Shown here piece after piece: positions 20,905 to 52,513 of a DNA stretch of 64,000 bases. Made by a program: the position numbers and the translations under genes. Numbering within the stretch: the stretch's first letter is position 1; the number at the start of each line of letters is the position of its first letter. The notes beneath the pieces are model-generated. The model had not been told where the DNA came from. It ran no database searches and saw nothing but the letters and a program-made list of their open reading frames with translations. This stretch comes from Dialister succinatiphilus YIT 11850 (GTDB lineage: Bacteria; Bacillota; Negativicutes; Veillonellales; Dialisteraceae), in the NCBI RefSeq assembly GCF_000242435.1, contig NZ_JH591189.1:133370-197369 (forward strand), given 5' to 3'.

Positions 20905-20929
20905 TGGGAAAGGGAGTTATGGAGTTATT

Positions 20930-21606: not shown

Positions 21607-21657
21607 GGGAATTTTAAATACTAATAATATTAATCGGTGATCATAGGTATTTATGAT

Positions 21658-21742: not shown

Positions 21743-21900
21743 AGAATCTTATATTTTACTTCCTATTGGATAACTTATCCTGATATACTATGAAATAGCT
21801 GTTTGATGAAAAAGGAAACGCTGTACTTACGGCAGGTTCCATGTACGGTTTTGATTTGAGCTGATTTTTATTCTGGGGGAAAAAAGGGAGGGAAAATAGT

Positions 21901-22098: not shown

Positions 22099-22126
22099 AG
22101 TAGGGAATTAGAGATTGGATAAAATA

Positions 22127-22161
22127 ATTAGTTCCGATAACGCCGATTTATCGGAACTAAT
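22127..22161. repeat. 13-bp perfect inverted repeat
   Basis: ATTAGTTCCGATA and TATCGGAACTAAT surround nine bases. No T run follows. It lies between a plus-strand small gene and the convergent hipA-like gene; it could be a terminator core or a protein site. Confidence 0.6.
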
Positions 22162-22309
22162 ACGGTATTTCAATACAGAAAAGTGAATAAATCCATCAGA
22201 AATAAGGCTTTTCTTGCCAGTAAATATTCATGAAAAAAATTGACTCTACTCATTTTTCCGTTTATGCAATAATTGCACACTGAACAATATTATAGATGTT
22301 TAATTTTTA

Positions 22310-22334
22310 AGCTGGTGCTCCGCCAGCTTTTTTT
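22310..22334 (+). terminator. Terminator between convergent genes
   Basis: AGCTGG-TGCTCCG-CCAGCT followed by seven T residues, ending four bases before the hipA-like stop codon. Confidence 0.8.
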
Positions 22335-22337
22335 CGG

Positions 22338-23465: not shown

Positions 23466-23689
23466 AGGCGGTTTCTTCTTTTTAGCTCCGCTTCTATATT
23501 TTTTGTCCAATTAATTTCGCTAAAATCCACTCCCAGAAGCTTACTGATTTTGTACGCCTGGGTTAAATCGAACTCATATGAGCGGTTTTCGCAATAAATG
23601 TATTCATTCGGCTCCATGTTCAGCAGTAGAGCCATATCATCAATAGTCTGCCCTTTGGCTTCACGGAGTTGTTTCAGAATCTAGGTCAT
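23462..23689 (-). pseudogene. HTH antitoxin-like frame with amber codon at position 3
   Basis: Read from ATG at 23689 the frame is Met-Thr-stop(TAG)-Ile-Leu-Lys-Gln-Leu-Arg. It then continues without interruption for 72 codons as an XRE/HipB-like helix-turn-helix protein (REAKGQTIDDMALLLNMEPN, then YKISKLLGVDFSEINW). Its stop overlaps the kinase start. Either a recent nonsense mutation has removed the antitoxin, or translation begins at ATT, CTG or the internal ATG at codon 19. No clear ribosome binding site precedes the ATG. Without it the kinase would be uncontrolled, so a rescue mechanism or an inactive pair is possible. Confidence 0.6.
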
Positions 23690-25912: not shown

Positions 25913-26020
25913 GCGTTTTATATATCGGTAATGATTGGCGCCGATAGTGATTCAGAGAGTAGTAAAAGTCGGCGTGGGCCTAACACCTACCGGTTAGTTT
26001 TGACGCTAGAGAAAAAGAGA

Positions 26021-26058
26021 CTGTGAGAAGATGATTGAACATTTTCCACAGCCCTTTT
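26021..26058 (+). terminator. Terminator of the 24.8-25.9 kb operon
   Basis: CTGTGAGAAG and TTTTCCACAG pair imperfectly, followed by CCCTTTTTATTTT. The sequence resembles the terminator after the CpXC gene. Confidence 0.6.
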
Positions 26059-26117
26059 TATTTTGCGCTATTTTTATTTTTTAGCATGTTGACGTAATCC
26101 AACATTTTAGACAAACA

Positions 26118-26639: not shown

Positions 26640-27123
26640 GATTCTCCTCCTCTAAGATTAATTGACTCTGCCTTACGTTTCTGATCATTGTGGATATTCG
26701 TTCATTTATAATTTTATATTTTATATATATTATCACATATCTTGCTAATATATACAATTTTTTGTTTTTCATTACATTCACCTTTTTCATTTATTTCTCC
26801 CCTTAATGAATACAAGTTTTATCAGCGCATCGGTTTTTGTATTAACATGTATGGAGGCAAGAAGATTGACAATAGTTATCGGTGTTTTTACAGGATTTAA
26901 TATGGGGGAATGGCTCCATATTACTTGTTGAAACATAAATATGGTATTTGATATATCGATTTGGCATTATAAAATGGTTATTTAATATTAAGTTTGCATC
27001 TACGCTTCAATTGTACAAATATGCGCTATAATAATTTTAAACAAAGTATTTTGGGATAGCATTTGGGGATATGGCATATTGAGGAAATAAATTCTTTAAT
27101 TTAATGAGTAAGGAGTGAGGGCA
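26640..27123. other. AT-rich gene-free stretch
   Basis: About 480 bp of low-GC DNA with runs such as TTTATATATATTATC. I see no coding frame, RNA gene or convincing promoter pair apart from AT-rich -10-like boxes. Confidence 0.6.
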
Positions 27124-28260
27124 TTGATATTAATGGAAAAATTAGTGGAAGGAACCATTCTTTATATCTATGGTTTGGATGAAAGAAAAAATTATGGTTG
27201 GAGTGAAAGGCAAAAAGGTAAAGTTGGAGTTGTGATGAGAAGTGATGATAAATTTAAGTATTATACAATTTTTTCATTACCTGAAAATGTATGCCTTCAA
27301 GATAAAGTCCTTTTCTCTGTTGTACAAAGCAGATACGGTCATATGTATGCTAAGTTCCTCATGCCAGGGGGAAATGAGCCGGACACAGCAATGCGTCGTA
27401 ATGAGCCGGACACAGTAGCGCGTCGTAATGAGCCGGACACAGTAGTGCGTCGTAATGAGCCGGACACAGTAGTGCGTCGTAATGAGCCGGACACAGTAGT
27501 GCGTCGTAATGGGCCGGACACAGTAGTGCGTCGTAATGAGCCGGACACAGCAGTGCGTCGTAATGAGCCGGACACAGCAGCGCGTTGTAATGGGCCGGAC
27601 ACAGCAGTGTTCCGTAATGGACCGGATGCGCCAGCATCTCGTGATGATCCTCATATAGTAAGAGAAAAGCAGGATATAAAGAACAGAATAATAGCAAGAA
27701 AATATGGAAAAGAATTCCTAGATAAAATTGCGCCTATAATAAATTGCAAACTTAAAGAAACGCCGAAAACATATGAAGAAATTAATCGAAACAGGCATAT
27801 AAAAGCGATTGAGCTGATTGATGAGACTGATGAGCATGATAAATGCTATGCTGCTTTGATACCCCAAAGAACTCCTTTTTTTACATCCATATTTATAAAA
27901 AATCCGAAGAGTAAGACATGTTACGACCCATCGTATACGATTACACTTGGATTAGAAGATTATAATTACCTAAAAGGGAAGTATTTAGATAGAGGAGAAA
28001 AATGCCTTATCTATTTTTGGGTCCATTGGAATAAGAAGAAATCAGAACGCGTCACATTTCAAGGTGAAAAGATTGAGGTAACTCCTTTTGAAGGTGTATG
28101 GGTGGCAGATTTTGCTAAAATAGTAGCTTACATAAAGAAATATAATCTTCCATTGAAAAAGTATACAAATTCCAAGACTGTTGGTGACAATGTAATATCG
28201 AATTATATTTTTGATTTAAGAGATCCAGAGATTTTTACGCAGCTCTTATGGAAACGTTGA
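27124..28260 (+). CDS. Protein with nonapeptide tandem repeat
   Basis: The 378-residue product has three parts. Residues 1-80 look like an OB/cold-shock-like fold (VEGTILYIYG, YGWSERQKGKVG, LQDKVLFSV). Residues about 84-173 are ten 9-residue repeats of the type NEPDTVVRR. The last 200 residues are an unrecognised domain (KTCYDPSYTITLGLEDY, YFWVHWNKKK). I chose TTG at 27124, eight bases after AAGGAG; ATG at 27133 is 17 bases away and GTG at 27115 overlaps the site. A terminator follows. No family is recognised; the fold of the first part is a pattern match only. Confidence 0.65.
   Translation: MILMEKLVEGTILYIYGLDERKNYGWSERQKGKVGVVMRSDDKFKYYTIFSLPENVCLQDKVLFSVVQSRYGHMYAKFLMPGGNEPDTAMRRNEPDTVARRNEPDTVVRRNEPDTVVRRNEPDTVVRRNGPDTVVRRNEPDTAVRRNEPDTAARCNGPDTAVFRNGPDAPASRDDPHIVREKQDIKNRIIARKYGKEFLDKIAPIINCKLKETPKTYEEINRNRHIKAIELIDETDEHDKCYAALIPQRTPFFTSIFIKNPKSKTCYDPSYTITLGLEDYNYLKGKYLDRGEKCLIYFWVHWNKKKSERVTFQGEKIEVTPFEGVWVADFAKIVAYIKKYNLPLKKYTNSKTVGDNVISNYIFDLRDPEIFTQLLWKR
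27373..27642 (+). repeat. 27-bp tandem repeat, ten units, inside a gene
   Basis: The unit is AATGAGCCGGACACAGTAG followed by TGCGTCGT. Units 3-5 are identical; units 1, 2 and 6-8 differ by one to three bases and units 9-10 have decayed. Because 27 is a multiple of 3, the copy number can change without a frameshift, and all three minus-strand frames also stay open. Confidence 0.97.
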
Positions 28261-28360: not shown

Positions 28361-28389
28361 TTTACTTGATGATTCGGGATGTCTATAAT
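28361..28389 (+). promoter_or_regulatory. Promoter of the recombinase operon
   Basis: TTTACT (28361-28366), 17 bp, TATAAT (28384-28389), about 50 bp before the first gene. Confidence 0.65.
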
Positions 28390-28441
28390 ATGTACAGTAA
28401 GTACTTATCATACGTAGACTACCTAAACTACTGAAAATAAA

Positions 28442-29560
28442 ATGATTATACAGAAGATTATCACACCACGGAATGAAACAAGATATCTGCTCTTAGACGA
28501 TGATTATCAAATTGTGGAGCCGGTACATCGGTATTTGAAATACATGGACTCTCTGGGGCGGAGCATTTTCACTCTTCGCACATACTGCTATGGGTTGAAG
28601 ATTTATTTTGAATTTCTGGATGCCCAGGGATATAACTATCTGACACTGCTGGGAAAGGGGAAAAAGGTATCGCTGCTGACGGATTTCATCGGATTTTTAA
28701 AGCAGTGGAAGTATAAGGATGTACCTTCCGTCAGGGTGGCAAGAAGCCCCAGAACGATTAACAATATTATGGCCGCTGTCTTGGGGTTCTATCATTTTCT
28801 GGAGATGAACAATGAAATCCCTGAAACAGGATTCTTTTCCGGGAATAAAGTCCGCAGCGGCTATAAATCCATGCTTTCGGAAATGTACATGAGCCAGCGG
28901 GTCCGGGCATCTTATTTCCATTTGAAGGAGGATGATCGGAAAATAGAGACTTGCAGCCGACAGCAGGTGATGCAGCTTATTGAAGCATGCCATTACATGA
29001 GAGATCAGCTCCTGATTATGTGCATGTTTGAGGGCGGGCTTCGGCTGGGCGAAGCGCTGAATCTGTGGGTACAGGATTTCAAGGTTTGGAATAACCAGCT
29101 TGTCCTGCGTCAGCATGAGGGAAATCCCTATGCCCGGATTAAGAATCACAGTGAGGCTACATTGGATATGCCTCCTTACGTGATGAAGTTTTTCTGCAAG
29201 TATATTGTGGACGAGTATCCGGAGGGCGATTATAAGTATGTGTTTCTCAACTATAAAGGGATTCATCGGGGACAGCCATTGAGTGAAGATACGGTTGAAA
29301 AGAAATTTGAGCAGCTTTCGAAAAAATGTGGATTCAAGGTTCATCCCCATATGCTTCGTCATTCCCATGCCACAGAGCTGATAGAAGTAGGGAATTGGGA
29401 TGTGCTGGATGTGCAGACCAGGCTTAGGCATAAGCATGTACAGACTACCATTGACAGCTATGTCAAAATCTCGGATGAATACAAAAAGAAGAAGTATGCA
29501 GAATTCCAGAAATGCCTGAAGAAAAGCCAGGGGAGTGATAAAGGGGATGATCAGTCATGA
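28442..29560 (+). CDS. TnpA-like tyrosine recombinase (A)
   Basis: The 372-residue phage-integrase-fold recombinase has an N-terminal SAM-like core-binding domain (about 25-140) and a catalytic domain. Active-site residues are all visible: Arg in GLRLGEAL, HxxR in HMLRHSHA, His in RLRHKHVQTT and Tyr in IDSYVKIS. The length matches Tn554 TnpA. No good ribosome binding site precedes the ATG, unlike the later genes of the operon. Its stop overlaps the next start by 4 bp. It probably performs strand exchange together with the longer recombinases. Confidence 0.9.
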   Translation: MIIQKIITPRNETRYLLLDDDYQIVEPVHRYLKYMDSLGRSIFTLRTYCYGLKIYFEFLDAQGYNYLTLLGKGKKVSLLTDFIGFLKQWKYKDVPSVRVARSPRTINNIMAAVLGFYHFLEMNNEIPETGFFSGNKVRSGYKSMLSEMYMSQRVRASYFHLKEDDRKIETCSRQQVMQLIEACHYMRDQLLIMCMFEGGLRLGEALNLWVQDFKVWNNQLVLRQHEGNPYARIKNHSEATLDMPPYVMKFFCKYIVDEYPEGDYKYVFLNYKGIHRGQPLSEDTVEKKFEQLSKKCGFKVHPHMLRHSHATELIEVGNWDVLDVQTRLRHKHVQTTIDSYVKISDEYKKKKYAEFQKCLKKSQGSDKGDDQS

Positions 29561-31359
29561 CATGGGAGGAAGTACAGAGGTATTACCGGAAACATCCGGA
29601 ATTACAGGGCCCTTATTTTAATGCAGCTTCTGTTGTTTCTACATCCTATCCGGAGACGGAATGGATTTTCACAAAGGACTACTATATAGACTTCTCTGCT
29701 ATTCATGGTACGAGAGCAGAAATGGAAATGAAGCTGGTCTTGCTTTATCTGATTTTAAATCGGAAATTACTGCTGCAAACCATTATTGTCTATTATATTG
29801 AAGTCTATCCCTGCATGATAGATTTTCTTGCCCATGGATTATCACAGCCAATCAGGGAATTCAGCTTTGTTAAAGTCTTAAAAGGCTTTGATTCCGACAT
29901 ACGGAAATACTTTGCTCAGGATCATAAATTTACTATGTCAAGAATTAAATATGCTTCTTTGCTTCCTCGAAAGATCAAGAATCTTTTGGAGCGGATGGCA
30001 TATACTTCAGAAGAGGATTATTTCCAAAGGGATTCATGGTCTATTTATGATTTTCACATGGAAAAGGACCGCATTAATCCCACTAATAGTATGTACCGCT
30101 TCTATTTTTACGATATCTATAATGAAAATAACCGATATATCCTGAAAAAGATGGTTGACTGGATGATAAAGAAAAGCCATATTTCATTCAGTACCATGTA
30201 CGCCCGCTATAGTCATATAAAAGAGTTTCTGAAACACTTTCAGAAAAGACGTGTCCAGTCCCTGACCACGGAAGATTTGACTGCTTATATGGCAGAGCTT
30301 TCTGATACATCAAGGCAGATAACCACGTATAATGTCAAAATATGCAGCTTGGAATTTTTTTATAAATTAGGGAAAAAGCTGGGCTTCTGGGACACGATTC
30401 CCTTAAATTTTCATGCCTATAGGAAGCGGTATTCCTATGTCTGCGATTATCATACGATTGGTGGAGTATCCGATTATGTCAAACGGCAGCTCTTTTCAAA
30501 AATGAAAGAGATGCCCCGAGATCTGGCTATGATTCTACTCATTATGTACGAAACAGGTATGCGAATCAGTGAAGTTTGCCGGCTTACATTGGATAGCCTG
30601 CAGGATTTTCATGGCAGGTACTATTTAGTTTACTGGCAGCTAAAGATGAAAAAAGAAGTGGAGCAGCCGATTCCTTACGGTCTGTATCTTAAAATGAAAG
30701 ATTATAAAGAAGAGCTGCTGACAGAGTATCCGGGAGAAATTTACTTTTTTACATCCGGATTCTGTACTCCTGCGAAAACACTTGCTGTTTCTGTTCGAAT
30801 GAATAAGTTTATCAGCCTGGCAGGCATTATGGAGAAAGATGGCACACCATATCACTTTAAAGCCCATGAATTCCGTCATGATTTTGCACTCCGGCTTGTA
30901 AATAACAGGATACCTTTTCTGGAAATCCAAAAACTCCTTCATCATAGTTCACCGGAAATGTCAATGATCTATGCAAAGGTGTCTGAGCAGGAGAGAAAGG
31001 AAAGGTATAACCGGTTCTGCGATAGCACCGGTCATATTTCCTCAAAACTGAATGAAAAGGAAATGGCTGTTCATGATGACGTAGCTTGGATGCATTACAT
31101 GCTTGGTCAGATTCTGCCTAACGGATACTGCTCCTACCCTGCAAAGCTTGGCGTATGTCCACATGCCAATCGATGCCTTTTCTGCGATCAGTTTAAGACG
31201 ACGTCGGAATTCCTTCCTGTGCTGAAAAGGCAGCTTCTTAAGGTCAACTGTCTGATGGACCGGGCAGGGCATGGTGAAAATGAAGAATACAGAAAAACGC
31301 TGGAAAAGGTTCACCAAAAGCTGCAGCTCATTATTTCGTCCCTGGAGGCGTCAGAATGA
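29557..31359 (+). CDS. Long tyrosine recombinase B (TnpB-like, first of pair 1)
   Basis: The 600-residue product has an N-terminal half of about 300 residues, a catalytic domain, and a C-terminal tail with a four-cysteine cluster (NGYCSYPAK, then VCPHANRCLFC). Catalytic residues are intact: Arg in TGMRISEVC, HxxR in HEFRHDFAL, His in LLHHSSPEM and Tyr in MIYAKVS. It overlaps A and C by 4 bp. Recombinase D is its paralogue: both have the DYYIDF/YYYVDF motif and EMKLV near the start and the same cysteine tail. Confidence 0.88.
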   Translation: MTWEEVQRYYRKHPELQGPYFNAASVVSTSYPETEWIFTKDYYIDFSAIHGTRAEMEMKLVLLYLILNRKLLLQTIIVYYIEVYPCMIDFLAHGLSQPIREFSFVKVLKGFDSDIRKYFAQDHKFTMSRIKYASLLPRKIKNLLERMAYTSEEDYFQRDSWSIYDFHMEKDRINPTNSMYRFYFYDIYNENNRYILKKMVDWMIKKSHISFSTMYARYSHIKEFLKHFQKRRVQSLTTEDLTAYMAELSDTSRQITTYNVKICSLEFFYKLGKKLGFWDTIPLNFHAYRKRYSYVCDYHTIGGVSDYVKRQLFSKMKEMPRDLAMILLIMYETGMRISEVCRLTLDSLQDFHGRYYLVYWQLKMKKEVEQPIPYGLYLKMKDYKEELLTEYPGEIYFFTSGFCTPAKTLAVSVRMNKFISLAGIMEKDGTPYHFKAHEFRHDFALRLVNNRIPFLEIQKLLHHSSPEMSMIYAKVSEQERKERYNRFCDSTGHISSKLNEKEMAVHDDVAWMHYMLGQILPNGYCSYPAKLGVCPHANRCLFCDQFKTTSEFLPVLKRQLLKVNCLMDRAGHGENEEYRKTLEKVHQKLQLIISSLEASE

Positions 31360-33182
31360 CAGTAATTACAAAGGAAAATATCAATTCACCTAAAACAGAC
31401 GAAGAAAGAATGCGTGAAGATCGGTGGAACTTTCTGGAATTTGATTATATTCCGGATACCATGAAACCCTTATCTCAGGTCTCCGGTTACTGGGTGGTTG
31501 ACTTCTCCTGTATTGCTGATACCGGTATTCGAGAAGAGCTGAAGACCTACTATGCCCATGTCATAAATGACCGTACCAGAAATCCACAAACGCTGGCGAA
31601 CACATTATTTTATATACATTGGGTTTTGCAGTTTCTTTCAGGCCTGGAGCTAAAAAAATCGCTGCTGAATTATCCTTTGGATCGGCTGCAGGAAAAATAT
31701 ATCCGGTTCCTTAAAGATCATGGTAAGGTGACTAAATCAAGAATTCGACAGATTCATGGAACACAGGTTGTTCATACCTATGTGGAGTACAGCAGTCTGG
31801 GATTGGAACTGAAAGCTGTCTACAATTATTTGAGTAGAAAACAGCTTGCGGGCATGTCACTTTCAGAAAAGGATGTGTGGGACTTGAGGGAGCTTCCCTT
31901 TAAGGTGGAAGGCATCTCTTCAAGACCCCGGTTTATGTTGAATTTTGAGCATATCAGCCAGCTTCCTATCAGAAAGGTTTTTAAGAGGTATGTATATGAA
32001 AGATTGAAAACGAGGAAACTGTCCACTGTTTTCTGTGATTTCAAGGCAGTAAATCTATTTTCTGATTTTCTTATGAAGTATTATCCTGACCTGCAGCACC
32101 TGAGAGAGGTGGATAGAAATATTATCACCCACTATTTTTCTTACATAGATTCGAAAAATTTTGCTACCACCACCAGCAAATCAAGAAAAAGCCTGCTGAA
32201 ACAGTTTTTGGAATTATCTTACTTCATGGGCATAGAGGATGTTCCTCAGCAGGAGCTTATATTCAGGGATGATTTCAGGAAAGCAGTAAAGCTGATTCCG
32301 AAAACCATCCCTAATGAGGTTCTATGGCAGCTGAATCGTGAGCTCCCGCACCTGCCCTATCAGCTGCAGACCATGATTTTGCTTTTAGAAAATGTAGGCA
32401 TGCGAGTCAACGAGCTCTGTCAGCTTTCCATCGACTGTCTAAAAAGGGATTATGATGGTTTCTATTTTATTGAGTACTACCAGGGAAAAACGCGCTGCTA
32501 TAACCGGGTACCAGTTTCTGATGCCATTGCCGATCGATTACAGAAACAGAGGGGAGAGACATTGGAACGATTTCCCCTTACAAGACTCATGTTTACTATT
32601 AATGGAAAAACACCGTATCCCCAGGAAAGCTTATCCAACCATTTGAATCAACTGTCCTACAAGTATCATATTATGGATGAAAATGGAAAATCTTTTCATT
32701 TCCGGCTCCATCAGTTCAGGCATACCGTAGCCATGCAGTACGCCCAGGCAGGGATGACACCTTATATGATTTCCTGTATGCTGGGACACAAATCTATTAA
32801 ATCCATCATGTCCTATGTGGAACTTAATGACCTTATGGCAGACAAGAAGCTGGAAGTATTCTGGAATAAAGAGGAAAACTACCTGGCAAAGATACTCTCC
32901 CCGTCAGATGGGAATGAGGAGGACCAGGCGGTAAGGCTGACGAATGGGTACTGCATGAATGCAGGAGACATTTGTGAAGACGCCGTTATCTGTTATAACT
33001 GCAGTATGTTTTCTGCTGATCATACGGATAAAAAATTACTTCAGGACTATGCGTCGGCTCTTCGAAATAAAATTCCGGAGCTGGAGATGAAAGGTATGGA
33101 AAGAGAAGGTCAGGTATATAAGAAACTCCTGGCAGAGCTGGAAAAGGTATTGCGTATGCCAAAAGAAATGGATGATCTATGA
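31356..33182 (+). CDS. Long tyrosine recombinase C (second of pair 1)
   Basis: The 608-residue product belongs to a different subtype from B. It starts with DEERMREDRWNFLEFDY and has SRPRFMLNFEHISQLPIRK near the middle. Catalytic residues: Arg in VGMRVNELC, HxxR in HQFRHTVAM, His in MLGHKSIKS and Tyr in IMSYVEL. The tail has its own four-cysteine cluster (NGYCMNAGD, ICEDAVICYNC). Overlaps are 4 bp on each side. Recombinase E is its paralogue. Confidence 0.88.
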   Translation: MTVITKENINSPKTDEERMREDRWNFLEFDYIPDTMKPLSQVSGYWVVDFSCIADTGIREELKTYYAHVINDRTRNPQTLANTLFYIHWVLQFLSGLELKKSLLNYPLDRLQEKYIRFLKDHGKVTKSRIRQIHGTQVVHTYVEYSSLGLELKAVYNYLSRKQLAGMSLSEKDVWDLRELPFKVEGISSRPRFMLNFEHISQLPIRKVFKRYVYERLKTRKLSTVFCDFKAVNLFSDFLMKYYPDLQHLREVDRNIITHYFSYIDSKNFATTTSKSRKSLLKQFLELSYFMGIEDVPQQELIFRDDFRKAVKLIPKTIPNEVLWQLNRELPHLPYQLQTMILLLENVGMRVNELCQLSIDCLKRDYDGFYFIEYYQGKTRCYNRVPVSDAIADRLQKQRGETLERFPLTRLMFTINGKTPYPQESLSNHLNQLSYKYHIMDENGKSFHFRLHQFRHTVAMQYAQAGMTPYMISCMLGHKSIKSIMSYVELNDLMADKKLEVFWNKEENYLAKILSPSDGNEEDQAVRLTNGYCMNAGDICEDAVICYNCSMFSADHTDKKLLQDYASALRNKIPELEMKGMEREGQVYKKLLAELEKVLRMPKEMDDL

Positions 33183-34972
33183 TGACAGGCAGGGAAGTTG
33201 AGTCGTATTTTGAGAGGCACCGGGAATGGCAGAGCATGACGTGGGACCTATCAGAGTTAATAAAAAAAGTGTACGGAAAAAATTCCATCAGAGTCAGAAT
33301 CAGCCGATACTACTATGTGGACTTCACGCCACTGGCAGGCAGACCCATATGCCGGGAAATGAAGCTGGTGATATTATATTTTCTGTTGAATCTTCATTAT
33401 AAAAGGCTTTTGCCCCTCATTGACTTTCTTAAGGCAGTATCTCTCTTTATTCATTATGCACGTGACGTTAAGCCAATCAATTCCCTGGGTGACCTGACTA
33501 TGGAGGGGATAGAGGCTTTTAAAAACTATTTGTCCCTGATAGTTGGAAAAACACCTGTGATCAGTAGTTTTCTGCGTAATGTCAGATGCACGTGGCATGA
33601 TGAATTCCATGCAGCTGCCTGGTATGAGCGGGATACTTGGGATTTAAGAAAAGTACATATGGATCCTTCGCGAATCAATATATCAGTACCAAATAGCAGA
33701 ATTAATTTTTTTGATATAGAGAATCCGGACAATAAGAAGCTTTTTAAGACTTATATGCTGCATCTGATTGAAGACCGGAACATCTGTCACACATCCATTT
33801 GTACGAGATCCTACTCACTGAGAGCTTTTTTGAGAAGATGTCCCTGCTCTTTGAAGGAGATAGACTCTGGCAAATTAAAAGAACTGCTTATGCAGCAGAA
33901 AGAATTTTACCGGAGCCAGGAAAAGTATAATAATATGATCTACATTCTGGAAGATTTCTATCGCTTCTGCAATCTTGAGCATCTATTGCCGGACATCAAA
34001 ATTAATTTCAGGGATTTCAGGGAACCCAGACGAATAAATATGCAGTTCAAAAGGCTGTCTCCCAGGGTAAAAAAGCAGATATTTGCTCACCTGCATGAAC
34101 TGAGGCCTGATGTTGCCATGATATTTCTGACTGTTTACTGTACAGGTCTGTATCTGTCAGAGGTATGCCAGCTGAAAACAGACTGTCTGCTTAAACAGGA
34201 AGGGGTTTGTTACATCCGCGTCTGGAAGCTCCATGCGCAGAATGCGGTCAACCAGCCTATTCCACAGACACTTTTTGATTACCTCTCTTACTATAGAGAT
34301 CGGGTACTGAAGCAGAATCCGGGCGATTGGCTATTTCCAGGAATTAAGCGCAAATTCATCAGCTCAGCCTCAGTAGAAGAAGAGATGCGCCGCTTCATTC
34401 TGAACCATCATATTACGGATGAGCAGGGAAACCTCATAAAATTTCGATTCCACTCTCTTAAGCATGACTTGGCTTATCGCATGCTTGATGATGACCTTTC
34501 ACTGCTGACAGTACAGAATCTGCTGCATGCAGACACAATAGAATCAGCGCTGCTGTACTCTACGAATCATGAAAAAGAAAAAAGAGACAAATATTTCCAT
34601 TTTCTGGAAAAGACCGGCAAAACAAAAGTATTGGCAGATGGAGAGGAAGACCGGCAAATTCTTTGGATACGAGAAAGAATGGCCCAGATACTTCCTAATG
34701 GATACTGCTCCTATCCCGTCAAGCTGGGCCTTTGTCCCCATGCGAATCATTGCCTTTTCTGTGATAATTTCCATACTACAAAGGACTTTCTGCCTGTATT
34801 TTACAGGCAGTCGGCAAAACTGGCACTCTTTCTCCATACTCTGGAGAAAAGCGGACAGGATAAACGGTATGAAGCCGCTTTGAAAGTAAAAAAACGGATT
34901 GATTACCTGATTCAAGAGCTGGAGGCGGATCATGATGAAGCAAGCAGTGAAGATCAAAGAAACGCTCAGTGA
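33179..34972 (+). CDS. Long tyrosine recombinase D, catalytic arginines lost
   Basis: The 597-residue paralogue of B keeps the N-terminal motif YYYVDF, the His (LLHAD) and the Tyr nucleophile (about 460, LLYSTN), and the cysteine tail (NGYCSYPVK, LCPHANHCLFC). However, the first catalytic arginine is replaced: TGLYLSEVC has Tyr325 where B has Arg. In the HxxR box HSLKHD has Lys428 instead of Arg. Two lost arginines should abolish cleavage, so D may be structural, DNA-binding or regulatory. The frame is otherwise intact with tight gene overlaps, which argues against simple decay. Confidence 0.85.
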   Translation: MMTGREVESYFERHREWQSMTWDLSELIKKVYGKNSIRVRISRYYYVDFTPLAGRPICREMKLVILYFLLNLHYKRLLPLIDFLKAVSLFIHYARDVKPINSLGDLTMEGIEAFKNYLSLIVGKTPVISSFLRNVRCTWHDEFHAAAWYERDTWDLRKVHMDPSRINISVPNSRINFFDIENPDNKKLFKTYMLHLIEDRNICHTSICTRSYSLRAFLRRCPCSLKEIDSGKLKELLMQQKEFYRSQEKYNNMIYILEDFYRFCNLEHLLPDIKINFRDFREPRRINMQFKRLSPRVKKQIFAHLHELRPDVAMIFLTVYCTGLYLSEVCQLKTDCLLKQEGVCYIRVWKLHAQNAVNQPIPQTLFDYLSYYRDRVLKQNPGDWLFPGIKRKFISSASVEEEMRRFILNHHITDEQGNLIKFRFHSLKHDLAYRMLDDDLSLLTVQNLLHADTIESALLYSTNHEKEKRDKYFHFLEKTGKTKVLADGEEDRQILWIRERMAQILPNGYCSYPVKLGLCPHANHCLFCDNFHTTKDFLPVFYRQSAKLALFLHTLEKSGQDKRYEAALKVKKRIDYLIQELEADHDEASSEDQRNAQ

Positions 34973-36761
34973 TGAAAGTCGTATGGAAGAAGACTGCTGG
35001 AATATCTGTTCATTTGACTTTGCTAAAAGCTGCAAGGGTAAAAGGCTCCCGAGAACCATAAAACGTGGTATTCTTGACTTTGGAAAAATAGGCAGTATAA
35101 CTATGCGGGAAGAACTGAAAAGTTTTTATCGTCAGATTATTCTGACCAGGAGACGGAGCGCGCGAACCTTTATCTGCAGCTTGAAGGTATGTCATTATAT
35201 GATAGATTTCCTGAGCTCACTGCCGGGAAATAAGTCAACCTTGGACTATGAGGAAGATGATCTTTACAAAAAATATAAAAAGTTTCTGAAGGCTAAGAAT
35301 GAGGCTTGTATACTCAGGGACCATGCCGTAAGGAAAGAACAGAAATACCATGTGTATCTGGAGGATAGTTGTCCGGTATTGGAAATCAAATCATTCTATC
35401 AGTTCCTGTTGGATCAGAAAAATAAAGATATTCCGGAAACGGATAAGGATATATGGGATGTAAAAAGGCTCCCTTTCCAGGTTACAGTGCAGTCATCCAG
35501 GCCCAGGTATATACTGAACTTTACGGGTATCACCCAGCTGCCCATACGGAAAATCTTTAAAAAATATATTCTTCAAAGGTTGAAGCTGCGAAAGCTTTCA
35601 ACAGTGATGGATGATATGAAAGCAATGAACCTTTTTTCCGATTTTCTGCGCAGGTACTATCCGGATGTCAAGGAACTCCCACAGCTGACACGACCCGTTG
35701 TACTGGACTATTTCCGGTACATTGACAGCAGACATTATGTGTACACCACTGCAAAATCGAGAAAGGGATGTCTGAAAACCTTTTTTGAAAATGTCATATA
35801 CCTTGACCTGGCTGAAATACCAACAAATCTGATTCTGCGAAAAGATTACAGGCAGCAAATCCACATTGTACCTCGGGTGATTCCCCAGTCAGTCATGGAT
35901 CAGCTGCAGGAAGCAATACCCAAACTTCCCCAGCCGGTTCAGAATATTGTTATTCTTATAGCCAAAATAGGGATGAGGATCAATGAAGCATGCAGGCTGA
36001 GCATCCGCTGTTTGAAAAAGGACAGCGAAGGGGGATACTACATAGAGTATTACCAGTACAAGACAGAACACTACAATCGGATACCTATCTCTGATTCCAT
36101 GGCAGAGCTCATCAAGGAACAGCAGACGGAAACTAAAAAACGGGATCCCCATGCAGCTTTCCTTTTTACCATACAGAGTGGGCGGGGGAAAAATCATCTC
36201 TATCCCCAGGAATCGGTATCCCGCATGCTGAACATCCTGGCAGTCAAGGAAAAAATCACAGGACCCGATGGGAAAATCTTCCGATTTCAGAGCCATCAAT
36301 TCAGGCACACCGTAGCCACAGACTATGCAAGGCAAGGATTCAGTCCTCTTATGATCCAGTCACTCTTAGGTCATAGAAGTCCGAAATCCATTATGCCCTA
36401 TGTGGAATACAGCAGGGATATGGAAAAAGAAAAACTACGCGCCTTTTTTGAAAAAGAGGGGAAAAGACTCTCTGCCGCAGTCAATGGGCCGCAGGGGAAG
36501 GATCGTTATGTGCCGCTGGTGAATGGATATTGCACCGACAGCAGCGATTTATGTGAAGATGCATGGATCTGCTACTCCTGCAGTATGTTCTCCATGGATG
36601 CAGCGGACAAGGCCCTGATGAGACAGTACCTGGTCAGAGTCCGGCAGAAAGCCGAAGACATGGAAATGAAAGGTTTTGTACGGGAAAGCCAGTTATATAG
36701 AAATCTGGAAAGAAATATTATACAAGCAATGGAGGAATCGGATCATGACAGATCGCAGTAA
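34932..36761 (+). CDS. Long tyrosine recombinase E (paralogue of C)
   Basis: The 609-residue product has Arg in IGMRINEAC, HxxR in HQFRHTVAT, His in LLGHRSPKS and Tyr in IMPYVEY, so it looks active. The start mirrors C (DESRMEEDCWNICSFDF), the middle has SSRPRYILNFTGITQLPIRK, and the tail has NGYCTDSSD with LCEDAWICYSC. The start at 34932 has GGAGG six bases upstream and overlaps D by 41 bp. Its 3' end overlaps the TnpC-like gene by 17 bp. Confidence 0.88.
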   Translation: MMKQAVKIKETLSDESRMEEDCWNICSFDFAKSCKGKRLPRTIKRGILDFGKIGSITMREELKSFYRQIILTRRRSARTFICSLKVCHYMIDFLSSLPGNKSTLDYEEDDLYKKYKKFLKAKNEACILRDHAVRKEQKYHVYLEDSCPVLEIKSFYQFLLDQKNKDIPETDKDIWDVKRLPFQVTVQSSRPRYILNFTGITQLPIRKIFKKYILQRLKLRKLSTVMDDMKAMNLFSDFLRRYYPDVKELPQLTRPVVLDYFRYIDSRHYVYTTAKSRKGCLKTFFENVIYLDLAEIPTNLILRKDYRQQIHIVPRVIPQSVMDQLQEAIPKLPQPVQNIVILIAKIGMRINEACRLSIRCLKKDSEGGYYIEYYQYKTEHYNRIPISDSMAELIKEQQTETKKRDPHAAFLFTIQSGRGKNHLYPQESVSRMLNILAVKEKITGPDGKIFRFQSHQFRHTVATDYARQGFSPLMIQSLLGHRSPKSIMPYVEYSRDMEKEKLRAFFEKEGKRLSAAVNGPQGKDRYVPLVNGYCTDSSDLCEDAWICYSCSMFSMDAADKALMRQYLVRVRQKAEDMEMKGFVRESQLYRNLERNIIQAMEESDHDRSQ

Positions 36762-37143
36762 AGCAATGGTAGAATTCTCAAAAAACCGATCAGAGCAGAA
36801 AATCGAGTATGTGAAATCGGTAATCAGCCAAATGGAGATGGAGCACAAAAAAATATCCGTTTATAGTGTGCAGAAAGCTTCGGGAGTATCCAAAACCTTT
36901 ATCTATGCTCACAGTGAATTGATTGATCTGATCCGGAATCTTAAAGGCGAAAAGAAACCGGATATTTCTGCAGAAGCCGCCGACACAGTGATAGCCGCGC
37001 TGAAAGTGGAAATCGAAGAGCTTAAAAAGGAAAATAAGATGCTGAAACAGGACCGCCTGTGGAAAGAAAAGTATCTCAGTGCCAAAGAAGAAAATGAACT
37101 GCTGAAAAAACGCATTGAAAAGCTGGAGGGACAGCTTTACTAA
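36745..37143 (+). CDS. TnpC-like accessory protein
   Basis: The 132-residue protein has an N-terminal helix-turn-helix-like region (ISVYSVQKASGVSKTFIYAH) and a C-terminal coiled coil (ALKVEIEELKKENKMLKQDR, then KEENELLKKRIEKLEGQL). Size, place and architecture match TnpC of Tn554-like elements, which modulates transposition. GGAGG lies nine bases before the ATG, which sits inside the end of recombinase E. It ends the operon; a terminator follows 50 bp later. Confidence 0.8.
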   Translation: MTDRSKAMVEFSKNRSEQKIEYVKSVISQMEMEHKKISVYSVQKASGVSKTFIYAHSELIDLIRNLKGEKKPDISAEAADTVIAALKVEIEELKKENKMLKQDRLWKEKYLSAKEENELLKKRIEKLEGQLY

Positions 37144-37391: not shown

Positions 37392-37476
37392 AAACGATTT
37401 GCTTCAAATAAGACTTCATTATATAAGTTGAATTCGGAATCCTGAGAAATCAAATGAATGGCAGGTGTGGCTGGCT

Positions 37477-40400
37477 ATGAGTAAATTGGAAGACGTGACT
37501 GTCGGAAGTACAGTAAAAGGGATAGTAGACAGTGACATTGTTTCCGTTGTGGCAGTTCAATGGTATGGAAGCAATGTGCTGGAAGTCACCTACAAGGACT
37601 CCAAAGGCGTGCTTGGAAATCAGCTCCTTTATCGGGAAAACGAGCCCCAACTTTCCGTATCATTCAGACACCTGGCATGGAGTTTCGATGCAGACCCGGA
37701 CCAGATGAAACTGGCATCAGAAGCCTATCGAATCAGCCTTGCCCATTTATTTGACCCCTATCTAGCGGTTCATACATCCTCCGTGGAGCCGCTTCCTCAT
37801 CAGATTTCGGCGGTGTATAAGGAAATGCTGCCACGGGTGCCCCTGCGCTACATCCTGGCCGATGACCCGGGAGCAGGGAAGACCATTATGACCGGCCTGT
37901 ATATCAAGGAACTGATTGCCCGGGGTGATCTGAAGCGCTGCATGATCGTGACTCCCGGAAACCTGGTGGAACAGTGGCAGGATGAGCTGTATTCCAAATT
38001 CCATTTGAAGTTTGATATTCTCACCAATGACCGGATTGAATCAGCAGTGAGCGGCAATATTTTTAATGAAGTAAACTTTATCATCTGCCGGTTGGATAAG
38101 TTGGCACGAAATGAAGATTTACAGGCCAAATTGAAGCATACAGACTGGGATCTTGTGGTTATCGATGAAGCCCATAAACTCTCTGCCACCGTGTGGGGCG
38201 GAGAGGTCAAGTATACGAAGCGGTTCCAGCTGGGAAAGCTCCTTTCCCAGGTAGCCCGCAATTTCCTGTTACTTACCGCTACTCCCCACAATGGAAAAGA
38301 AGTGGACTTTGAACTCTTCCTGTCCCTGGTGGATGCGGACCGCTTTGGCGTGAGACGTATCAAGAGCCAGCACTCCATCGACGTCAGCGATGTGATGCGG
38401 CGCCTGGTGAAAGAAGAGCTGTTGAAATTTGATGGTACCCCCCTGTTCCCTGAACGGAGAGCCTATACGGTGAACTATTCCCTTTCTCCCATGGAAGCAA
38501 AGCTTTACCAGGAAGTAACGGAATATGTACAGGAAGAATTCAACCGTGCCGATCAGCTGCAGAATGACCGCAAAGCTGCCGTAGGCTTTGCATTGACCAT
38601 CCTGCAGAGAAGACTGGCCTCCTCACCGGAAGCCATTTATCAATCCCTCCGGCGCAGAAGAGAGCGCCTGGAACATCGCCTGGAAGAGGAAAAACTGGGC
38701 AGGCGGGCAGAAGAATACAGAAATCCCGATTGGGAAGAAGAGGATGAAGACGATCTGCCTTCCATAGAGCAGGAACAGATGGAAGAGCAGGTGGTGGATC
38801 ACGCCTCTGCTGCGGCCACCATGACAGAACTGCAGGCTGAAATCCGTATCCTGAAAAGGCTGGAAGAAATGGCCAATGACGTCCGTTTAAGCGGCGTAGA
38901 CCGCAAGTGGGATGAATTGTCCAATCTCCTGCAGGATAAGACATTCATGGTAGGAAAAGATGGTGAGCGGGAAAAGCTGATCATCTTTACAGAGCATAAG
39001 GACACACTCCGTTACCTGGCGGAGAAGATCCGCTCCCTCTTAGGTGATGATGAGGCAGTGGTGACCATCCATGGCGGCATGCTTCGCGGCGACAGGCGCA
39101 AGGTGGAAGAACAGTTTAAACAGGATAAAGAAGTCCGTATCCTGGTGGCCACCGATGCGGCCGGTGAAGGCATCAACCTCCAGCGGGCACACCTGATGAT
39201 CAACTATGACCTGCCCTGGAATCCCAACCGTTTGGAGCAGCGCTTTGGCCGTATCCACAGAATCGGACAGACCGAGGTCTGCCATCTGTGGAATCTGGTG
39301 GCTTCCGAAACAAGGGAAGGCTATGTCTTCCAGCGGCTCTTCAGCAAGCTGGAAGAAGAAAGACAGGCCATGGGCGGGAAAGTCTTTGACATCCTTGGAA
39401 AAATGACCTTTGATAATAAGCCGCTGAAGGACCTTTTGATCGAAGCCATCCGGTATGGCAATGATCCCCAGGTACGGGCAAGGCTGACACAGGTGGTGGA
39501 TGCTTCCGTGAATCCTGAGGTATTCCGGAAAATGCTTCAGGACCAGGCATTGACCGATGATGTCATGGACGTTCACACGGTGAATGTGATCAAGGAAGAC
39601 ATGGAAAGGATGGAAGCCCATAAGCTGCAGCCCCATTTCATTGAAGCTTTCTTCCTGGAGGCTTTTAAGAGGCTGGGAGGGCGGATGGTCAGAAGAGAAA
39701 AAGGCAGATATCAGGTGACCTTTGTTCCCCAGGCCGTGCGGAACAGGGATATGCAGATCGGCCTGGGAATCCCTGTGCTGAAGAGCTACGAAAGAGTCTG
39801 CTTTGATAAAGAAGACTGCATCATTCCGGGGCGTCCCATGGCAGAACTTCTCTGCCCCGGTCATCCCCTCCTGGAAGCAGTGATAGATATCATTTGTGAA
39901 AAAAGCAGGGATGTGATGAAGCGAGGCGCCGTCTTTATCGATGACCAGGATTATGGCACCGAAGCAAGGCTTCTTTTCTATGTGGAAGATGCCATACAGG
40001 ATGGTGTCCTTTTGAAAAATGGACAGCGCCGGACCATATCCAAGCACATACACTTTGTGGAAATGAAGGAAAACGGATCCGCCATCAATGCAGGCTATGC
40101 ACCCTACCTGGATTACCGGGCACCGGATGAACAGGAGAAGAAGGCTGTCGGTGAATGGATGGAAACACAGGAATGGCTCTGCCATGATGTGCAGAATGCA
40201 GCCAAAGGCTACGCCATAGAGCACCTGATTCCCCGGCACATGGAAGAAGTGAAGCATCGGAAATTAGCCATGCTGGATAAGACGGAAAAGGCTGTGAAAC
40301 AGAGGCTGACCGAAGAAATCCAGTACTGGGATAACCAGGCAGTAAATTTGAGGGAACAGGAAGCAGCAGGGAAAACGAATGCCCGGCTGAATTCCATGCA

Positions 40401-40980
40401 GGCTGCCCAAAGAGCCGATGATTCGGCCAGCCGTCTGCAGAAACGATTGGAAGAAATCAGTAAAGAACGGAGCATTTCCCCCCTGCCTCCCATTATTACA
40501 GGGGGTGCACTGATTATTCCTAAAGGGCTGATTCACCGGCTCATGGCAGACCCGCTGCCTTCCATGGGACAGGGAGATCGGCAAAGCGTGGAATATGCAG
40601 CCATGAACAGGGTGATGGAAATCGAAAAAGAACTGGGCTATCAGCCGGAAGATGTGAGCGCCCAGAAATGCGGCTACGATGTGGAATCCAGAGTGCCTGA
40701 ATCCATGCGTGCCGCTTCCGGTGACTGCGCTTTGCGGTTCATCGAGGTGAAAGGTCGGCAGAAGGGGGCAGAAACTGTGACTGTCAGCAAGAATGAAATC
40801 CTCACAGCCCTGAACCGGCCGGAGGAATTCATCCTGGCCCTGGTGGAAGTGGATGGGGAAAATACCCATACCCTGTACTTAAAAAAGCCCTTTAGAAATC
40901 CACCGGATTTTACCGCCACCAGTATCAACTTTAATATCCGGGACTTGGTGAAAGAATCGGAAATCCTTTTGGAAAAGTGA
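37477..40980 (+). CDS. SNF2-family helicase with C-terminal DUF3883/nuclease-like domain
   Basis: This 1167-residue superfamily 2 DNA translocase, similar in architecture to the DrmD/BrxHII type helicases of defence systems, shows Walker A DDPGAGKT (Lys135) and DEAH at 230-233. Motif III is LLLTATPHNG, with TEHKDTLRYL and the helicase C motifs ATDAAGEGIN and RFGRIHRIGQ further on. A long coiled region follows. Near the end, RFIEVKGRQKG (Glu1090, Lys1092) and later LYLKKPF fit a DUF3883 or PD-(D/E)XK-like domain. It is the first gene of a four-gene operon and is coupled to the methylase gene. Confidence 0.9.
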   Translation: MSKLEDVTVGSTVKGIVDSDIVSVVAVQWYGSNVLEVTYKDSKGVLGNQLLYRENEPQLSVSFRHLAWSFDADPDQMKLASEAYRISLAHLFDPYLAVHTSSVEPLPHQISAVYKEMLPRVPLRYILADDPGAGKTIMTGLYIKELIARGDLKRCMIVTPGNLVEQWQDELYSKFHLKFDILTNDRIESAVSGNIFNEVNFIICRLDKLARNEDLQAKLKHTDWDLVVIDEAHKLSATVWGGEVKYTKRFQLGKLLSQVARNFLLLTATPHNGKEVDFELFLSLVDADRFGVRRIKSQHSIDVSDVMRRLVKEELLKFDGTPLFPERRAYTVNYSLSPMEAKLYQEVTEYVQEEFNRADQLQNDRKAAVGFALTILQRRLASSPEAIYQSLRRRRERLEHRLEEEKLGRRAEEYRNPDWEEEDEDDLPSIEQEQMEEQVVDHASAAATMTELQAEIRILKRLEEMANDVRLSGVDRKWDELSNLLQDKTFMVGKDGEREKLIIFTEHKDTLRYLAEKIRSLLGDDEAVVTIHGGMLRGDRRKVEEQFKQDKEVRILVATDAAGEGINLQRAHLMINYDLPWNPNRLEQRFGRIHRIGQTEVCHLWNLVASETREGYVFQRLFSKLEEERQAMGGKVFDILGKMTFDNKPLKDLLIEAIRYGNDPQVRARLTQVVDASVNPEVFRKMLQDQALTDDVMDVHTVNVIKEDMERMEAHKLQPHFIEAFFLEAFKRLGGRMVRREKGRYQVTFVPQAVRNRDMQIGLGIPVLKSYERVCFDKEDCIIPGRPMAELLCPGHPLLEAVIDIICEKSRDVMKRGAVFIDDQDYGTEARLLFYVEDAIQDGVLLKNGQRRTISKHIHFVEMKENGSAINAGYAPYLDYRAPDEQEKKAVGEWMETQEWLCHDVQNAAKGYAIEHLIPRHMEEVKHRKLAMLDKTEKAVKQRLTEEIQYWDNQAVNLREQEAAGKTNARLNSMQAAQRADDSASRLQKRLEEISKERSISPLPPIITGGALIIPKGLIHRLMADPLPSMGQGDRQSVEYAAMNRVMEIEKELGYQPEDVSAQKCGYDVESRVPESMRAASGDCALRFIEVKGRQKGAETVTVSKNEILTALNRPEEFILALVEVDGENTHTLYLKKPFRNPPDFTATSINFNIRDLVKESEILLEK

Positions 40981-40991
40981 GGAATTTTGGA

Positions 40992-43739
40992 ATGAAGAAA
41001 CTCATTGAAGTGGCACTGCCGCTGGATAAAATCAACGAAGCTTGCGCCAGGGAGAAATCTATCCGCCATGGGCATCCATCGACCCTTCATTTGTGGTGGG
41101 CACGCCGGCCATTGGCCGCTGCCAGAGCGGTCATCTGGGCCAGCCTCGTAGATGCGCCTTCCTCCCATCCCGAACTTTTCCCTACGGAAGAAGCGCAGAC
41201 GAAAGAAAGACAGCGCCTCTTTGGCATTTTGGAGAAACTGGTGGTATGGGAAAATTCCAATAACCAGGAGGTCCTGGATGAAGCCAAGGCGGAAATCCTG
41301 AAGTATAACAATGGAGAATTCCCTACGCTGCTGGATCCCTTCGCCGGCGGCGGTGCTATTCCCCTAGAAGCCCAGCGGCTGGGACTCAAAGCCATTGCCC
41401 ATGACCTGAATCCTGTAGCCGTCATGATCAATAAGGCCATGATTGAAATTCCGCCCCGCTTTGCAGGAAAACCGCCTGTAAGCCCTGATGATGGACGTCG
41501 CATTAATGAATGGCATGGGGCACAGGGACTTGCAGAGGATGTACGGTACTATGGGGAATGGATGAAAAAAGAAGCTTTTAAGCGAATCGGTCATCTCTAT
41601 CCGAAAGTACAGCTGCCAAAGGAAGAAGGTGGTGGTGAAGCTACAGTAATCGCTTGGTTATGGGCACGAACTATTAAATGCCCTAATCCTGCATGCGGTT
41701 GCCATATGCCATTGTTTAAATCAAATATAATTGCTAAAAATAAAGCTTATGTGAAGGTAGAAAGAGACGAAAACGGATACCCGGTTTTTAGGGTAATCAA
41801 CGCGAAGGACCCCATAGAGGAAGGAACGGTTAATAGAAAAGGAGCTCATTGCATTTACTGCAATACGCCTGTTAGTTTCTCATATATTCGTGAACAGGGG
41901 AAAGCAAATAATTTAGGGGTTCAACTAATGGCAGTGGTTGCTAAAGGTAAGAAGGGGAGGATTTATTTAACACCTGATGAATACCAGAAGAGAACTGCTT
42001 ATTCTTGTGATCGTCCAGATATTGATCTTGGGAAAATAGCAAATTATCCAGGTTATTTGAATACGCCTGCATATGGGCTAGAGAATTTTCAGGACTTATT
42101 TACTGCGCGGCAGTTGACAATTTTTACAGAATTAGAAAAGAATATAGAAAATTTAGGAGACCGCATTGAAAAAGCAGCTATTATTGCAGGATTAAAAAAT
42201 GACCATGTTAGTTTAAGCAATGGAGGCTGCGGCGCAAAAGCGTATTCTGAAGCAATTAAAGTGTATCTTGCTTTTCTTATAGACAAATTGGCAGATTATA
42301 ATTCGGCTGTATGTTCTTGGAATGCTGTTGGACAAAAAATTCGCAATACATTCGGATTAACGGGGATGTCGATGACATGGGATTATGCTGAAGCAAATCC
42401 TTTTTCTGGAGCGTCTGGTTCATTTGATAATATGCTAGAGTGGGTTGTAAAAAGTATACGCAATTTGCCAACTAAAAATGCTGGAAATGTTGAGCAGGTT
42501 GACGCACAAATTGATTCAGGATTGAGAAATGTAGTTATTTCAACAGATCCTCCTTACTATAGCAATGTTCCATATGCAGATTTTGCCGATTTTTTCTATG
42601 GATGGATGAGAAGAAATCTTCAATCTGTTTATCCTAATTTATTTAAAACAATTCAAACCCCTAAAAATGAAGAGCTAGTGGCAGATCCTTATAGGCAAGG
42701 GAATAAATTAAAAGCAGCAGAATATTTCGAAAATGGGATGTTCCTCGCGTGTAAACAAATGTATAAATATTCGAAAGATGATGTTCCAGTAACTATTTAT
42801 TATGCATTTAAAGAAAGTACCATAACAATTAGCCAACAAAAACAATTTGTTTCATCAACGGGCTGGGAAACTATGCTTTCAGCATTAATACGTTCAGGAT
42901 TTAGAATAACTGGGACGTGGCCAATTAGAACCGAGAGATCAGGTAGGACCCGTAGTATGAATTCAAATGCTTTGGCGTCATCGATAGTACTTGTCTGCCG
43001 CAAACGTTCGGAAGATGCGCCGCAGACAACTCGCCGTCATTTTATAGCAGAGCTTCGGAGAGAACTACAGTCAGCATTAAAAAAGCTGCAGCAGAGCAAT
43101 ATTGCTCCTGTAGACTTAGCCCAGGCATCCATCGGTCCCGGCATGGGGGTATTCTCCAAGTACAGCCGGGTGCTGGAGGCAGATGGCTCGGAAATGAGTA
43201 TACGGAGCGCCCTGCAGGTCATCAATGAGCAGGTAGATGCTTATTTTAATGAACAGGTAGGGAGTTTGGATGCGGAAAGCCGCTTCTGCGTGGACTTGTA
43301 TATGCAGGCCCAATATGAAGATATCCCCTACGGCGAAGCGGAAATCCTGGCCAATGCCAAGGGGGCGCTCATTCCTAAGATGGTAGACAGCAAGGTGCTC
43401 TACGCCAAGGCCGGCAAGGTGCACCTGGTGAGGCGGGAAGAGCTGCCGCCTAAAGTAGACTCTGATGAATCCAACGTCTGGCGGCTCACCCAGCAGCTTA
43501 CCGGTGCCATGGCAAAGGGGGGCATAGAAGAATGTGCCAAACAGGTAGCATCCCTTTATGGGGTCAATGTGGAATATGCAAAGGATTTGGCATATCGCCT
43601 GTATACGGTGGCTGAGCAGAAAGGATGGACTGCGGAAGCTTTCGCCTATAACGCATTGATCGTTTCCTGGATGGATATCCAGAGCCGGGCTGCGGAGCTG
43701 CAGTCGAGACAGATGGTAGAAACAAGTCTGTTTGAATAA
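40992..43739 (+). CDS. DUF1156-type adenine-specific DNA methylase homologue
   Basis: The 915-residue product starts with the DUF1156 pattern (KSIRHGHPSTLHLWWARRPL). It has SAM-binding motif I as LLDPFAGGGAIPLEA and catalytic motif IV as STDPPYYSN (Asp519-Pro-Pro-Tyr). Zinc-ribbon cysteines (CPNPACGC, CIYC) lie between. It should methylate adenine in DNA. The ATG at 40992 has GAGG nine bases upstream; a GTG overlapping the helicase stop is the alternative. The stretch 41.6-43.05 kb is far more AT-rich than both ends of the gene, as if the centre had been replaced by recombination. Confidence 0.88.
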   Translation: MKKLIEVALPLDKINEACAREKSIRHGHPSTLHLWWARRPLAAARAVIWASLVDAPSSHPELFPTEEAQTKERQRLFGILEKLVVWENSNNQEVLDEAKAEILKYNNGEFPTLLDPFAGGGAIPLEAQRLGLKAIAHDLNPVAVMINKAMIEIPPRFAGKPPVSPDDGRRINEWHGAQGLAEDVRYYGEWMKKEAFKRIGHLYPKVQLPKEEGGGEATVIAWLWARTIKCPNPACGCHMPLFKSNIIAKNKAYVKVERDENGYPVFRVINAKDPIEEGTVNRKGAHCIYCNTPVSFSYIREQGKANNLGVQLMAVVAKGKKGRIYLTPDEYQKRTAYSCDRPDIDLGKIANYPGYLNTPAYGLENFQDLFTARQLTIFTELEKNIENLGDRIEKAAIIAGLKNDHVSLSNGGCGAKAYSEAIKVYLAFLIDKLADYNSAVCSWNAVGQKIRNTFGLTGMSMTWDYAEANPFSGASGSFDNMLEWVVKSIRNLPTKNAGNVEQVDAQIDSGLRNVVISTDPPYYSNVPYADFADFFYGWMRRNLQSVYPNLFKTIQTPKNEELVADPYRQGNKLKAAEYFENGMFLACKQMYKYSKDDVPVTIYYAFKESTITISQQKQFVSSTGWETMLSALIRSGFRITGTWPIRTERSGRTRSMNSNALASSIVLVCRKRSEDAPQTTRRHFIAELRRELQSALKKLQQSNIAPVDLAQASIGPGMGVFSKYSRVLEADGSEMSIRSALQVINEQVDAYFNEQVGSLDAESRFCVDLYMQAQYEDIPYGEAEILANAKGALIPKMVDSKVLYAKAGKVHLVRREELPPKVDSDESNVWRLTQQLTGAMAKGGIEECAKQVASLYGVNVEYAKDLAYRLYTVAEQKGWTAEAFAYNALIVSWMDIQSRAAELQSRQMVETSLFE

Positions 43740-43775
43740 TCGGCAGTTTCCATGAGCAGTAGAAGGGAGCTTGAA

Positions 43776-52502: not shown

Positions 52503-52513
52503 ATGAGCGCCTC

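Follow-up and report, generated by a model that had tools for sequence, protein, structure and literature searches.

A Tn554/GInt-kind recombination module of Dialister succinatiphilus with a probably duplicated recombinase pair and one duplicate that has lost its catalytic pocket

The DNA analyzed here (the window) is a stretch of 64,000 nucleotides from Dialister succinatiphilus YIT 11850, which includes at positions 28442-37143, on the + strand, six tightly packed genes, A-B-C-D-E-T. The reading that we favor, with reasonable but not full confidence, is that these genes are the recombination module of a site-specific integrative element, of the same kind as Tn554 and the GInts, whose probable cargo is a set of Hma defense genes. 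The module would descend from a three-recombinase ancestor, A-B-C-T, in which B and C were copied in tandem as a pair, and the second copy of B, here called D, would have lost its catalytic pocket while still under selection. In that case, the operon shows how, within a mobile element, an enzyme that cuts DNA can give rise to a helper that does not. A recombinase-fold protein with an incomplete active site is also part of GInts and SEs, two families of mobile elements (PMC5385486, PMC10214605). In the Dialister operon an apparently dead protein is found beside its active sister, and three-recombinase relatives stand for the earlier state; the role of the dead subunit becomes a testable question. 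The module is also an example of Tn554/GInt-type machinery that adjoins, and probably moves, an anti-phage system.

The genes of the operon are as follows.
A, 28442-29560, + strand: short tyrosine recombinase, TnpA/GinA-like, 372 aa (Pfam PF00589, E 1e-27)
B, 29557-31359, + strand: long tyrosine recombinase, 600 aa, RHRHY complete, four-Cys C-terminal tail
C, 31356-33182, + strand: long tyrosine recombinase of a second subfamily, 608 aa, RHRHY complete
D, 33179-34972, + strand: duplicate of B, 597 aa, without R-I, hairpin Lys, R-II and box-III His
E, 34932-36761, + strand: duplicate of C, 609 aa, RHRHY complete
T, 36745-37143, + strand: TnpC-type DUF6262 protein, 132 aa (Pfam PF19776, E 1e-13)

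A first-pass annotation made from the sequence alone had placed the same genes, in the order A-B-C-D-E-TnpC, at these positions, and the DUF6262 domain found in T agrees with its naming of the last gene. It had also counted five tyrosine recombinases. This is correct with respect to the fold, since Pfam Phage_integrase was over threshold in all five proteins from A to E (E 8e-14 to 1e-27), as was DUF6262 in T, but it does not extend to catalysis because of the residues missing from D. The catalytic residues of A were present, as judged by eye. In the whole genome, Phage_integrase matches were found at nine loci, including A-E. The overlaps of 4 bp that had been described for the whole operon occur at A/B, B/C and C/D, but D and E overlap by 41 bp and E and T by 17 bp; the starts of E and T are each preceded by a good GGAGG-type ribosome-binding site. 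The C/D junction is an ATGA overlap identical to those at A/B and B/C, and on this ground an assembly chimera was rejected.

A motif scan of ~85,000 species genomes produced 80 loci, nearly all of them with one short and one long recombinase. The scan found an A-B-C-T module in Clostridium sp. UBA10317 (locus L020), and profile searches added two loci with the same order, L110 and L112, which are Clostridia-like as is L020. Locus L022 has a three-recombinase order that belongs to a different lineage. DUF6262 is the last gene in the three-recombinase modules and in the Tn554-type locus L023. A search for other genomes with the six-gene order, proposed in the first-pass annotation, returned none. 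No second five-recombinase module was detected by the motif scan in the ~85,000 species genomes, in plasmids, phages and IMG/VR, in 398 genomes of the phylum (E as query), in 391 genomes of the Clostridia-like class (C/E profile), or in the order sets around two relatives, which consist of largely overlapping genomes. The module was present in 1/61 genomes of the order (D as query) and in 1/300 genomes of the class (C/E profile), in both cases the window's own genome, and the plasmid and phage collections contained Tn554-type relatives only, at <30% identity. The six-gene module, and with it D, was seen in a single genome; five-recombinase modules may occur in further strains or metagenomes. 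A module with four or five tandem tyrosine recombinases was not found described in open-access full text.

The four long proteins were compared by BLASTP. B and D are 30% identical over 616 columns (262 bits) and C and E are 45% identical over 583 columns (492 bits); all cross pairs scored <90 bits, at 20-24% identity, and the matching of B to D and of C to E is not due to chance. The common signature that had been reported for B and D, CPHAN(R/H)CLFC, was confirmed as CPHANRCLFC in B and CPHANHCLFC in D, and the motif set reported for the other pair was likewise found in both proteins (NFEHISQLPIRK and ICEDAVICYNC in C; NFTGITQLPIRK and LCEDAWICYSC in E). At the DNA level, repeats between the two halves of the operon are spaced at 3577, 3579 and 3585 bp, which is one register of ~3.58 kb (3577-3585 bp), and this puts B/D and C/E in a common register. 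The phylogeny that had been suggested as a check was computed with 37 long recombinases (IQ-TREE, LG+C20 mixture). B was the sister of D (100/99) and C the sister of E (100/100). The B+D pair grouped with the B genes of L020, L110 and L112 (100/100), the C+E pair grouped with the C genes of the same loci (100/99), and in a separate tree A was located in the clade of their A genes (100/99). AU tests rejected the topology in which B joins the L020 and L110 B genes without D (p 0.009) as well as those in which C or E joins the three-recombinase modules without its own partner (p 8e-5 each). The trees, the AU tests and the placement of A together indicate that the genes of the module most likely descended together from an A-B-C-T ancestor and that the B-C pair was then duplicated. 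An assembly of the five recombinases by separate insertions of different elements, to which the merely 20-24% identity of the cross pairs could point, is contradicted by the trees: both sister pairs have 100% support and belong to the same clade of three-recombinase modules as A. The genes also overlap and have the common 3.58-kb register, and we regard such an origin as extremely improbable.

The proposal in the first-pass annotation that B-C was duplicated as a unit is supported by the sister pairs, the AU tests and the clade of A. The alternating genes (B-C-B'-C') and the 3.58-kb register found for both pairs make it likely that the two genes were copied in a single joint event, but B and D are separated by a longer path than C and E (2.96 and 1.37, respectively), and a joint duplication is for this reason the simplest reading and not a proven one. 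The path from B to D is about as long as those from B to the B genes of the relatives (2.93-3.04), and B and D are both long branches. These values would be expected if the B/D duplication was older than that of C/E, the module having grown in two steps, or if the B-D grouping was in part a product of long-branch attraction. However, the grouping has support of 100/99 and an AU p of 0.009 under a mixture model chosen to keep such attraction low, one duplication is the easiest way to the alternation B-C-B'-C', and D perhaps evolved fast because it was freed from catalysis. These alternatives are, in our opinion, quite unlikely.

The product of the second B gene differs from all the other long recombinases in its catalytic set, which is Y325-H425-K428-A451-Y460; R-H-R-H-Y is found in 35/36 of the others. 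D has lost R-I (Y325), the hairpin Lys (H352), R-II (K428) and the box-III His (A451), and kept Tyr460, so that the box-II His and the Tyr are the sole remnants of the R-K-H-R-H-Y set. When the 22 columns that are nearly invariant in 35 relatives were inspected, D kept 18, including those of the four tail cysteines, the NG motif, the box-II His and the Tyr, and the four lost were precisely the catalytic ones just named. By simple arithmetic, the chance that 4/4 losses hit the 6 catalytic columns among 22 is 0.002. The gene has no stop or frameshift over 597 codons despite ~70% amino acid divergence from B. Its differences from the L020 B gene at codon positions 1, 2 and 3 (0.54, 0.44 and 0.68) are near those between B and the same gene (0.54, 0.43 and 0.68), and on this basis D looks to be still under selection as a protein. 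The catalytic fold of tyrosine recombinases is present (Pfam E 8e-14). The AlphaFold model has a mean pLDDT of 80.5, with most of the catalytic domain >90, and its best PDB matches by Foldseek were XerH (E 2e-8), Tn1549 Int and lambda Int. D is probably a non-catalytic subunit with a recombinase fold, the loss of activity being deduced from its residues, with the Tyr kept. The "unusually large recombination complex" anticipated in the first-pass annotation then needs qualifying, because one of the added subunits has lost the catalytic pocket.

The main rival to this reading is that D is a redundant duplicate that is becoming a pseudogene, with no role, whose active site was lost since B does the work. 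D is indeed the longer branch of the B/D pair (1.72 vs 1.24), comes from a single genome and no longer has its catalytic residues. Nevertheless, the frame is open over all 597 codons at this level of divergence, with third-position changes dominating, and the pocket residues alone are gone while the structural and cysteine columns are all kept. In addition, the catalytic domain is predicted at high confidence, the gene is translationally coupled to C via the ATGA overlap, and E begins inside it. A decaying D is thus considered unlikely. At the other extreme, D could still be catalytic by means of substitute residues together with Tyr460 and His425, as the nucleophile and the first box-II residue are kept and the change from R to K retains the positive charge. 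However, D has other residues in place of both arginines, the hairpin Lys and the box-III His, and the R225K variant of the Tn1549 integrase is the form that was crystallized with DNA (PDB), presumably to block the reaction; residual catalysis by D is highly improbable. The sole other exception to R-H-R-H-Y among the long recombinases is the C gene of L112, with Gln for the box-III His. This C-type recombinase (L112 7728-9584) has FRAT for FRHT in box II and is perhaps another recombinase in the course of losing its active site.

The operon was compared with the known families of elements that resemble it. In the Tn554 family, the operon encodes a short and a long tyrosine recombinase and then TnpC, and insertion is sequence-specific, into radC in the classic members. 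The operon described here shares with members of this family (e.g., L023, L026 and L039) a short recombinase followed by long recombinase genes with four-Cys tails and by DUF6262/TnpC (both T and the final gene of L023 have PF19776), as well as overlapping genes and short tandem repeats between the promoter and the first gene. It differs in having one short and four long recombinase-fold genes, instead of a single long one, and in that A, B and C belong to a separate clade. The Tn554-type loci L023, L026 and L039 sit in radC; no such site was seen here, and no radC fragment was seen upstream of A. The nearest relatives are the three-recombinase modules L020, L110 and L112, which have the same order without D or E, at identities of 43% for A, 30-36% for B, 34-40% for C/E and 40% for T. 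L020 and L110 have the same promoter and repeat layout as the operon, and the catalytic residues are complete in both of their long recombinases.

GInts are genomic islands with three integrases encoded in ginABCD; they are flanked by imperfect direct repeats of 10-17 nt, have an AT-rich 3' end and excise as circles (PMC5385486). In GinC the first arginine is missing, and its gene is required for both integration and excision (PMC5385486). As in GInts, several recombinases and a small TnpC-like protein are encoded at one end of a cargo-bearing island (a probable one here), and one recombinase-fold subunit, GinC there and D here, has incomplete catalytic residues. By their published description, GInts are set apart by having three recombinases and by the incomplete subunit, which has lost R-I, being the third gene; D is the fourth gene and the sister of the active B. 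In place of three recombinases with ginD at the 5' end, five are found here, for which a three-gene ancestor is proposed. In the strand-biased circularizing elements (SEs), the protein Tfp is without the RHRY motif (PMC10214605). Compared by description, SEs also combine a short and a large active recombinase with a motif-less recombinase-fold protein and a small auxiliary protein, but they have two active recombinases, were reported from Gammaproteobacteria, and have the order IntA-Tfp-IntB-Srap, as opposed to A-B-C-D-E-T with the incomplete protein fourth. Recombinase in trio elements (RITs) consist of three short recombinases (315-410 aa) with terminal inverted repeats (PMC10214605). They resemble the operon in having several adjacent tyrosine recombinase genes and differ from it in that 4/5 of the recombinases here are ~600 aa and a TnpC-type gene is added; no inverted repeats of the RIT type were detected within 25500-58500. 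As D is the sister of an active B within the same operon, in a tree built without GinC or Tfp sequences, it probably arose independently of those two proteins.

A mechanism can be outlined. From an ancestral module with the recombinases A, B and C and a TnpC-type protein, tandem duplication of the B-C pair would have generated A-B-C-B'-C'-T, after which the second B lost its catalytic pocket while selection on its other functions continued. The six proteins, made from one transcript, would assemble on the element ends, where A, B, C and E would supply the cleaving tyrosines. D would use its core-binding domain and its cysteine tail to bind a half-site or partner subunits and would make no cut itself, with the result that only chosen strands are exchanged, as was proposed for GinC and Tfp. 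T would promote integration and set its orientation like TnpC. A hetero-oligomeric complex of this kind, with four active recombinases and a dedicated non-catalytic D evolved in place that dictates from its half-site which strands are exchanged, is possible but on the doubtful side. Were it real, it would contain more distinct recombinase-fold subunits than any mobility machinery that we found described, and it would be a direct record of how dead subunits like GinC and Tfp can arise.

The region upstream of A has two elements that could be related to expression or recombination.
28361-28389, + strand: promoter-like site TTTACT-17-TATAAT, upstream of A
28402-28437, + strand: four 9-bp tandem repeats, TACTTATCA TACGTAGAC TACCTAAAC TACTGAAAA, between the promoter and the start codon

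Equivalent promoter-like sites precede A in L020 and L110, in which similar repeats are found at the same spot; in Tn554-type loci, repeats of the TTAAAG type are located ahead of tnpA. The chance expectation for the 9-bp repeats in the window is 0.02. They are probable operator or recombinase-binding repeats; the window has a single set, before A, and no second one. Directly upstream, at 27115-28260, a 381-aa gene has ~13 in-frame copies of a 27-bp repeat (RRNEPDTVV), an array in which long frames stay open on the opposite strand also. A REP-like short palindromic repeat of ~52 bp (26012-26065) has many copies across the genus. Farther upstream, a separate mobile region of low GC (12597-23507) includes genes for a phage-type integrase (12597-13685) and a MobA/MobL relaxase (16160-17380) and a weak HipA-like gene (22338-23510). 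A TonB-dependent receptor is also encoded in the window, which points to a host that is probably a diderm member of the Bacillota.

An Hma defense system, with HmaA, HmaB and HmaC side by side, begins 321 bp downstream of T, and a second HmaB-like gene lies between HmaB and HmaC.
37465-40980, + strand: HmaA, SNF2-type helicase (PADLOC, 1645 bits)
40977-43739, + strand: HmaB, DUF1156 adenine methylase (PADLOC, 1063 bits)
43752-46154, + strand: second HmaB-like DUF1156 methylase, shorter and diverged (PADLOC, 452 bits)
46151-49558, + strand: HmaC, DUF499 ATPase with a Swt1-like HEPN domain (PADLOC, 1069 bits; Pfam)

Both the mobility of the element and the assignment of its cargo are based on gene order. 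A recombination operon followed by cargo is the order found in Tn554 and GInts, which makes the Hma genes its probable cargo. Downstream of HmaC, next to each other on the - strand (50631-54397), are two genes for Schlafen group-3 helicases that possibly belong to the same defense cargo. No empty site was found when the flanking DNA was compared with the genus and the cargo with the order; the relatives in the genus are without this region. Rfam gave no match at gathering scores. The module could also be a fixed relic that no longer moves, a reading that does not conflict with its origin by duplication. In favor of it, neither ends nor repeats nor an empty site could be delimited, and the module was found in 1/61 genomes of the order. 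On the other hand, the six frames are all open, the promoter and repeats are conserved, and the absence of the module from all sampled relatives suggests acquisition after their divergence. We deem a relic somewhat unlikely.

A repeat of ~240 bp located just after HmaC was considered as the right end of the element and rejected, since it is a dispersed element inserted in methylase genes. This non-coding element (~235 bp, 49583-49817) contains a long hairpin, its terminal inverted repeats, TTATTTGGAGTC and GACTCCAGATAAA, are imperfect, and no fitting Rfam family was found for it. The element is identical over ~220 bp at four places in the genome; besides the copy in the window, these are L137 1594-1868 (- strand), L138 1471-1712 (- strand) and L139 1526-1770 (+ strand). 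Three of the copies each interrupt a different DNA-methyltransferase gene, precisely at the codons for its catalytic (D/N)PPY motif, and GNPPYKG also follows the copy in the window. The element looks like a mobile or intron-like sequence that targets the active-site motif of methylases.
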